This document shows positions 22,711 through 54,244 of a DNA stretch of 64,000 bases, one piece after another. The notes below the pieces were generated by a model. It was not told the origin of the DNA, did no database searches, and saw only the letters and a list, made by a program, of their open reading frames with translations. A program made the position numbers and the translations under genes. The stretch spans positions 124,001 to 188,000 of the forward strand of contig NZ_JAFMPR010000005.1 in NCBI RefSeq assembly GCF_020667835.1, in the 5' to 3' direction. Position 1 is the stretch's first letter, and every line of letters begins with the position of its first letter. Source of the DNA: Roseibaca sp. Y0-43 (GTDB lineage: Bacteria > Pseudomonadota > Alphaproteobacteria > Rhodobacterales > Rhodobacteraceae).

Positions 22711-22739
22711 CCCCGGCGCCCACCCGCGCCGGGGTTTTT
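22711..22739 (+). terminator. Rho-independent terminator after the aminotransferase
   Basis: CCCCGGCGC (22711-22719), a CCACCC loop and GCGCCGGGG (22726-22734) are followed by five T. It lies 10 bp past the stop and ends 19 bp before the start of the next gene, so most transcripts should stop between the two. Confidence 0.85.
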
Positions 22740-23940: not shown

Positions 23941-24108
23941 GGGATGCGCCCTTTGGGGCCGGGACGGGCTACGCCCGCCCCCGCCCCACAGGCCACGATT
24001 TGGCCCTGCTGGCGCAGGGCCGGACATCTGGCTATGCCCCTGCCTTTGGCGTGCGGGGTGCCTGTGGCGCGCGTTGCAACCAGCGTATTTGCGGAAAGAT
24101 GGACCGGC
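23941..24108. other. Convergent intergenic spacer
   Basis: 168 bp lie between the ends of the DoeA-like and iron permease genes. A small hairpin, GGCCCTG (24002-24008) and CAGGGCC (24015-24021), could end transcription from both sides, but no T tract follows. No gene is evident. Confidence 0.4.
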
Positions 24109-28029: not shown

Positions 28030-28091
28030 TTCATCCTTGCCCAAATATCCTGGGGTGAATGGTCCCGCAGGGACCAGAGGGGCAAAGCCCC
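28030..28091 (-). repeat. Dispersed extragenic element, copy A
   Basis: Read on the minus strand: hairpin GGGGC-TTT-GCCCC directly after the branched-chain aminotransferase stop, then hairpin GGTCCC-TGC-GGGACC, then the tail CCAGGATATTTGGGCAAGG followed by ATGAA. Tail and hairpin recur at 34987, 45782 and 53716. Confidence 0.7.
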
Positions 28092-34980: not shown

Positions 34981-34986
34981 TCCCTG

Positions 34987-35040
34987 TCACCTTGCCCCAA
35001 ATACTCGAAATCCCCGGCCTGCCCCCGATGGCAGCGCCGG
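34987..35040 (-). repeat. Dispersed extragenic element, copy B
   Basis: On the minus strand an outer CCCGGC/GCCGGG pair is followed by the tail CGAGTATTTGGGGCAAGG and TGA. It lies between the rhodanese and YeeE genes, antisense to their transcript. Confidence 0.6.
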
Positions 35041-35062
35041 GTCATCCTTGGAAAGGCCCGCC

Positions 35063-38990: not shown

Positions 38991-39565
38991 AGGAACCTCA
39001 CTGCGTAGAACCCGCCCACCAGCAACACCACGAAAACGACGAAGACAAGGCCCAGACGCCGCTCGATGAAATCACGAATGGGTGCGCCGAATTTCCACAA
39101 GAGTGCCGCCACGATGAAAAACCGCAGCGCCCGCGCCACGACAGAGGCCAGGATGAACACCGGCAGCGACAGTGCCGTCGCCCCCGACAAGATGGTGATG
39201 ACCTTGTAAGGAAAGGGCGTGACCCCCGCGATCAGCACGGCCCATGCGCCCCATTCGGCGTAGCGGGCGGCAAATTCGGCGAAATAGGCGTCCTTGCCGT
39301 AAAACTCCAGCACCGGGCGGCCCACCAGTTCGAACGCGCCATAGCCAATGGCATAGCCTGCCAGACCGCCCAGCACAGAGGCCGCGGTTGCCACCGCCGC
39401 GATCAGGAAGGCGCGCGAGGGGCGCGCGATGATCATCGGGATCATCAGCGCGTCGGGCGGAATGGGAAAGACCGAGGATTCGATGAAAGCCACGAAGGCC
39501 AAGACCCAGAGCGCGCGCGGATGACTGGCCATCGACAAGGTCCAGTCATATAATTTTTTCAGCAC
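38987..39565 (-). CDS. YqaA/DedA-like membrane protein
   Basis: 192 residues with four to five membrane segments. FIESSVFPIPPDALMIPMII and GGLAGYAIGYGAFELVG are followed by GVTPFPYKVITILSGATALSL and VARALRFFIVAALLW. These are signature stretches of the YqaA branch of the DedA/SNARE-associated superfamily. DedA proteins act as undecaprenyl-phosphate or lipid scramblase-like transporters; the role of YqaA is open. The start is a GTG at 39565. Translationally coupled to dsbB. Confidence 0.88.
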   Translation of the reverse strand: MLKKLYDWTLSMASHPRALWVLAFVAFIESSVFPIPPDALMIPMIIARPSRAFLIAAVATAASVLGGLAGYAIGYGAFELVGRPVLEFYGKDAYFAEFAARYAEWGAWAVLIAGVTPFPYKVITILSGATALSLPVFILASVVARALRFFIVAALLWKFGAPIRDFIERRLGLVFVVFVVLLVGGFYAVRFL

Positions 39566-39614
39566 GTTACGTGACCTTTTTCATGTAGTCGGACAACCGC
39601 GGTCAATGCCTTGT

Positions 39615-45767: not shown

Positions 45768-45781
45768 ATTTGGCCAAAGCT

Positions 45782-45834
45782 GGGGGGCATTCTGCCCCCC
45801 AAACCCCCCTGAGAGTATTTTTGGCAAGATGAAG
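45782..45834 (+). repeat. Dispersed extragenic element, copy C
   Basis: Hairpin GGGGGGCA-TTC-TGCCCCCC (45782-45800) then tail CCCCTGAGAGTATTTTTGG, CAAGATGAAG. It follows the leuA stop by 14 bp, and the hairpin could act as a terminator although no T tract follows directly. Same architecture as copies A, B and D. Confidence 0.7.
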
Positions 45835-53715: not shown

Positions 53716-53782
53716 GGGGGCGCTTCGCCCCCCTCGGGCCTGACGGCCCTCACCCCCCGAGGATATTTGAGCAAGGATGAAA
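53716..53782 (+). repeat. Dispersed extragenic element, copy D
   Basis: Hairpin GGGGGCG-CTT-CGCCCCC (53716-53732), then a short spacer, and the tail CCCCCCGAGGATATTTGAGC, AAGGATGAA. It is antisense to the lpd and MAPEG transcripts and runs up to the MAPEG stop codon. Same architecture as copies A-C. Confidence 0.7.
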
Positions 53783-54216: not shown

Positions 54217-54244
54217 CGGGGCGCGAGGTTGGTCTCGCGCCCCG
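54217..54244 (-). terminator. Strong intercistronic hairpin between sucB and the MAPEG gene
   Basis: CGGGGCGCGAG (54217-54227) and CTCGCGCCCCG (54234-54244) form a perfect 11-bp stem with a 6-base loop, nine bases past the sucB stop. No T run follows on the minus strand, so it may instead protect the sucAB mRNA 3' end or dampen read-through. Confidence 0.6.

Follow-up and report, generated by a model that had tools for sequence, protein, structure and literature searches.

A dispersed extragenic element of Rhodobacteraceae: a conserved bipartite tag with lineage dialects and exchangeable hairpins

The DNA uptake sequences of Neisseriaceae and Pasteurellaceae are short asymmetric motifs that occur genome-wide, on both strands and in species dialects. 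REPs are small extragenic palindromic repeats found near 3′ ends, between convergent or co-directional genes (PMC3733652). The element described here recalls both, reaches about 290 copies per genome, and has no name, function or description that we could find in open-access papers; the REP surveys consulted do not name Rhodobacterales. Its carriers, the Rhodobacteraceae, rank with the most abundant bacteria of the sea and count laboratory models (Cereibacter, Paracoccus) among their members. A preliminary description of the window, that is, the whole stretch of 64,000 nt analysed, had proposed a dispersed extragenic element with similar strings in other Rhodobacterales, and copies found across the family support this. 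New beyond that description are the division of the tags into classes, their dialects in each lineage, the constancy of their orthologous positions and the independence of hairpin and tag.

Build of the tag and its hairpins

All four copies placed earlier at 28030-28091 (−), 34987-35040 (−), 45782-45834 (+) and 53716-53782 (+) are present, and we add a decayed fifth (Table 1). Each of the four was said to couple one or two GC hairpins, differing from copy to copy, with a similar tail, and this is what we see: copies A and B have a single hairpin each, and those at 28030 and 53716 have two. The proposed freedom of orientation also holds, as copy A and the copy 3′ of the class-IV aminotransferase gene (ilvE) lie sense to the upstream gene, those at 34986 and 53716 antisense to both flanking genes. 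With 3 mismatches allowed, the chance expectation for the class-1 pattern in the window was 0 in 100 shuffles.

Table 1. Components of the tagged units in the window
Feature	Coordinates	Strand	Comparison
GC hairpin of copy A (TGGGGGGCATTCTGCCCCCCA)	45781..45801	+	
Second C-run of copy A, length 6, equal to the hairpin G-run	45804..45809	+	run-length matching over 136 copies
Class-1 tag GAGTATTT-TT-GGCAAGATGAA of copy A, 3′ of leuA, before ABC-F gene	45813..45833	+	orthologues in G254 and G258
Hairpin 1 of copy between MAPEG gene and lpd	53716..53732	+	
Hairpin 2 of the same copy (GGGCCTGACGGCCC)	53736..53749	+	
Class-2 tag GGATATTT-GA-GCAAGGATGAA of the same copy, antisense to both neighbours, 3 bp from MAPEG stop codon	53761..53781	+	orthologous copies in about 12 relatives
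Hairpin 1 of ilvE-site copy (GGGGCTTTGCCCC), flush with aminotransferase stop codon	28079..28091	−	
Hairpin 2 of ilvE-site copy (TGGTCCCTGCGGGACCA)	28060..28076	−	
Class-2 tag GGATATTT-GG-GCAAGGATGAA of ilvE-site copy, about 20 bp before next gene's start	28030..28050	−	site in 24 relatives
Hairpin of copy B (CCCGGCGCTGCCATCGGGGGCAGGCCGGG; CCCGGC..GCCGGG)	35013..35041	−	kept in G254 and G258
Class-1 tag GAGTATTT-GG-GGCAAGGTGAC of copy B, one mismatch, antisense between rhodanese and sulphur-transport genes	34986..35006	−	
Decayed fifth tag GCGTATTTGCGGAAAGATGGA, between convergent genes	24083..24103	+	orthologue in G254 intact

The conserved tail, hereafter the tag, is bipartite, consisting of box 1 (GAGTATTT or GGATATTT), 2-3 free bases and box 2. 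Its conservation stands as first described, but the single core then proposed does not: there are two linked classes, in the host GAGTATTT-N2-GGCAAGATGAA (class 1) and GGATATTT-N2-GCAAGGATGAA (class 2). Fewer than ten copies genome-wide had been named as the finding that would speak against the element; the host genome (G000; 3.03 Mb searched, 54 contigs) holds about 66 tails, with 21 matches to form 1 (10 exact) and 45 to form 2 (40 exact), and 0 and 0 for the reversed-pattern control. The other five class-2 matches have one mismatch and none has 2-3. Taken over the whole host genome, tail density is about 22 per Mb. Exact matches in Roseinatronobacter sp. S2 (G260), a member of the host's genus, divide into 32 of the form ATATTT..CCAGAATGAA and 58 in which GTATTT goes with GCAAGATGAA or a box nearly identical to it, and no boxes are exchanged between classes; the classes do not mix in G373 either, and the host genome has one class hybrid (L418). 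Tags also exist without any hairpin, among them many of class 1, which are preceded by T (81% T at −1). By inspection, pairing of the two free bases with the upstream C-run followed no consistent relation.

The GC hairpin module is optional and always lies directly 5′ of box 1. Its single form comprises G-run, loop, C-run and second C-run; its double form has, between the first hairpin and the second C-run, a further hairpin whose sequence is free. The G-run and the first and second C-runs are equal in length (5/5/5, 4/4/4 or 6/6/6) in 94 of 136 copies, the G-run and second C-run lengths showing a rank correlation of 0.89 in the host genome and a weaker one in other genomes. Base pairing of the hairpins is kept, their sequence is not, and hairpins are interchangeable: 64 copies of the second hairpin have 27 different 5′ arms, with a mean stem of 5.9 as against 2.8 ± 0.14 when halves are swapped, and in G373 an identical module precedes tags of either class. 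Many units of the latter genome (290 copies; L385-L414) have an extra upstream hairpin (CGGATCGC..GCGATCCG, of which compensated variants exist), which means that growth at the 5′ side of the module is possible. Of 37 occurrences of the commonest hairpin word, GGGGCKYTGCCCC, in the host genome, 35 have a same-strand tag just downstream and two are inside genes; since outside genes it occurs only before tags, we rejected the notion of hairpins as independent mobile elements. A hairpin with the loop GGGGGCTGTCTGCCCCC, a conserved loop within an otherwise free hairpin, recurs in Cereibacter, Paracoccus, Leisingera, Ruegeria, Thioclava and the host genus (L431-L436, L250, L253, L259); one search for it used a composite query containing the loop.

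Lineage dialects at fixed orthologous sites

Among 120 genera of Rhodobacteraceae, drawn automatically and including fragmented MAG assemblies, genomes contain from 0 to 290 copies, many of them 20-290, and controls gave almost always 0-2, a few genomes being noisy. Most of the 25 genomes of the host genus hold 10-50 copies; in 240 genomes sampled across the class Alphaproteobacteria the class-1 form was at chance level outside the host. Class 1 (GAGTATTT..GCAAGATGAAG) recurs across genera of the family. Class-2 box 2 keeps one spelling throughout a genome, and the spelling changes between congeneric species: it reads GCAAGGATGAA for the host and for G258, CCAGAATGAA for G257 and G260, CAAAGATGAA for G240 and G241, and ACCAGAAAGAAGC for G373; single copies with lineage-specific box 2 were seen in Cereibacter (GCAGAGTGAAAG), Paracoccus (GCAAGAAAGAAT) and Leisingera (GCCAGATGAAG). 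The spelling differs between species at shared sites too, among them one orthologous site compared in five genomes (L041/L280/L319/L268/L354).

Loci of G000, G258, G240, G257 and G260 were paired by both flanks (blastn), and the resulting orthologous sites are not independent across species. Nearly all of the retrieved G258 copies occupy the gene boundary of their host counterparts and share their orientation. In 33 such pairs of sites, shared between the host and a sister species, box 1 is identical throughout (264/264) and box 2 almost so (359/363), while the two free bases are 70% and the flanks 58% and 66% identical; identity breaks off at the tag edge, where the final base of the tag agrees in 33/33 pairs and the base after it in 18/33. 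The tail is thus conserved in sister species, a point on which the preliminary description had been ready to be refuted. As to the hairpins, 18 of the 33 in the host are nearer to a host paralogue than to their orthologue, some with a full change of type. The ilvE site was followed in 24 relatives; most have the tag there, whether or not a hairpin accompanies it, and G246 and G263 lack it. Tag and hairpin therefore have separate histories, given the fixed tags as against hairpin turnover, the variable hairpin at the ilvE site and the G373 module found before either class. The tag loci are old, their position and orientation are kept between species, and within a species the tags are almost invariant. 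At window positions 39533-39614 the host has a shorter spacer and a TTTTTCAT remnant, whereas the orthologous spacer of G254, a close relative, contains a class-1-like tag (AGAGTATTTGAGCAAAATGAAG), possibly a recent loss or gain of a tag.

That spelling changes in concert within each lineage, over dozens of fixed orthologous sites, suggests that some cell factor reads the tags; such lineage-wide spelling of an otherwise near-invariant sequence is hard to explain without a trans-acting reader. Alternatively, the tags might be left over from an ancient repeat family, functionless now and held similar by gene conversion, as the hairpin modules that are closer within the genome than to their orthologues and the occasional loss of a site, such as ilvE in G246 and G263, would allow. 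We consider this highly improbable, since at diverged orthologous sites the tags are conserved far above their flanks while the two inter-box bases change; conversion tracts would carry these bases along, which disfavours gene conversion as the keeper of the tags. The avoidance of divergent regions also speaks against relics.

Gene context and possible roles

For 163 copies both neighbouring genes were called, with a home-made codon-usage caller: 62 are tandem sense, 45 tandem antisense, 54 convergent and 2 divergent. The window baseline (gaps of at least 40 bases) comprises 28 tandem, 6 convergent and 10 divergent gaps, so that the convergent share is 54/163 among copies and 6/44 among window gaps; divergent copies are significantly rare. 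In a second, independent set, 94 exact class-1 tags of other genera, 41 are sense, 26 antisense, 25 convergent and 2 divergent. Often the unit takes up all of the intergenic space: the hairpin abuts one stop codon, and the tag is either 0-10 bases away from the following stop codon or 9-19 bases ahead of the following start. A promoter was considered and rejected: besides the near absence from divergent regions, inspection found no −35 at the right distance, and no sigma-70 site was called at the copies.

Such a context would suit an element working at transcript 3′ ends, its hairpin a bidirectional terminator or 3′ stabiliser and its AU-rich tag a site for RNase E or a termination factor. This RNA-level role is the main rival to the reading we favour below. 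Hairpins flush with stop codons, convergent enrichment and rarity between divergent genes all speak for it, and box 1 is AU-rich, matching the preference of R. sphaeroides RNase E for AU-rich sites (PMC6238624). A few tags directly follow separate canonical hairpin-plus-T-run terminators (L085, L093, L128), and tandem pairs show a small sense bias (62:45, p = 0.12; 41:26, p = 0.09; 103:71 when pooled over sites that are not independent). However, with about 41% of tandem copies antisense, orientation does not match the upstream gene; in the window, none of the four was called as a terminator of the intrinsic type, in which a T-rich run begins within 0-2 bases of a GC stem, and the hairpin stands 8-20 bases from TATTT; hairpin-less tags are conserved; and a general RNase or RNA polymerase would not account for the lineage dialects of box 2. 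Weakened by the antisense copies and the non-canonical terminator form, a transcript-end role seems to us rather unlikely. A search with Rfam 15 covariance models found only tRNAs at gathering score, plus one sub-threshold chance match, and none for the element. The window also has a canonical terminator (9-bp GC stem, then TTTTT; 22711-22734) without a tag, so ordinary intrinsic terminators coexist with tagged units; a strong tag-less 11-bp GC stem (CGGGGCGCGAGGTTGGTCTCGCGCCCCG; 54217-54244) lies between the MAPEG gene and the next gene.

The tag could instead be a chromosome-level site read as DNA, either as an uptake sequence that serves natural transformation or transfer by gene transfer agents, or as a site for a nucleoid protein, and its dialects would parallel those of Neisseria. 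Strand symmetry, dialects and exclusion from promoters are in line with this idea, and in G260 the tags are enriched on the chromosome (91 on 3.48 Mb, as against 5 on a 613-kb and 1 on a 167-kb replicon). Uptake sequences, though, are far denser than the 20-76 sites per Mb found here, and are marked by many near-misses and intragenic copies; our tags lie nearly always outside genes, and the 40 exact to 5 one-mismatch copies of class 2 are unlike a balance of mutation and uptake. On these grounds we regard a chromosome-level site as improbable. A KOPS-type strand-polar replication motif was rejected as well, G260 tags being 49 forward and 48 reverse as counted by strand of the record. So was phage origin: nine viral contigs match the class-1 pattern, 2/9 with a GC hairpin, and two matches to phage records are weak. 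Two contigs of the viral collection (L425 and L427) have a full hairpin with a class-1 tag and are possibly prophage or host DNA.

Favoured reading and comparison with known systems

The reading we favour, tentatively and with a little less than even confidence, is that of a REP-like extragenic family of unusual build, whose tag is read by a putative trans-acting factor, whose hairpins are replaceable and whose role is that of a strand-neutral boundary. Compared with the classical REP the build is reversed, with the bipartite tag constant and the GC-hairpin module optional and variable. The tag would be a recognition sequence, probably as DNA, for a factor whose specificity may drift by lineage; this factor, or tag-guided recombination, might copy hairpin modules from tag to tag, and the hairpin may act on either strand as an RNA 3′-end barrier or intercistronic boundary. 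Such a strand-neutral role could explain why the hairpin is tolerated beside stop codons and not in divergent promoter regions. That Rhodobacteraceae possess a whole recognition system, reading a bipartite gene-boundary tag with lineage-shifting specificity, 50-300 sites following in concert and replaceable hairpins installed, is possible but somewhat doubtful. Against the favoured reading, no transposase was linked to the element, and its strong positional conservation is not what one sees in active mobile elements. Template-switch repair at palindromes could also account for the perfect stems and the equality of run lengths, ordinary gene conversion for hairpin turnover, and whole-element replacement, not co-evolution, for part of the lineage-wide dialects.

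That a RAYT (an IS200/IS605-like Y1 transposase) mobilises the element as a classical REP or REPIN is barely credible. The placement is indeed that of REPs as surveyed (PMC3733652), extragenic and beside 3′ ends, in convergent or unidirectional gene pairs and not in divergent ones. Yet two defining features of REPs are lacking: PF01797, the domain of such transposases, had no match in the host genome and exceeded the cut-off in 1 of 25 genomes of the genus, and we found no fixed palindrome with a GTAG or CGTC (TGTC/CCTC) tag, the 27 stems sharing no tetranucleotide 5′ of the hairpin and the conserved part being the 3′ tail. Regular inverted dimers (BIME/REPIN) were not seen either, nearly all copies being single apart from rare close pairs such as C22:245285(+)/245435(−), with similarly spaced pairs in other genomes. 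As a REP-like family that lacks a RAYT, the element gives a fresh occasion to ask how repeats of this kind are held similar.

Overall, the element resembles intrinsic terminators in its GC-rich hairpin close to a stop codon and departs from them in that most copies lack a U-run directly after the stem, antisense copies are common and conserved sequence lies 3′ of any release point. With DNA uptake sequences it shares a short asymmetric motif spread genome-wide, species dialects, occurrence on both strands and richness on the chromosome, but the tags are much rarer, longer, bipartite, outside genes and almost free of near-miss copies. Like the REPs of E. coli, Pseudomonas and alphaproteobacteria, the units are short, dispersed, extragenic and hairpin-forming, lie near 3′ ends, show strand symmetry, are rare between divergent genes and have copies exchanged within the genome. 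Unlike REPs, they lack GTAG/CGTC, a RAYT and BIME dimers, and they combine a hairpin of free sequence with a conserved 20-base bipartite tail on its 3′ side, at positions shared between species.
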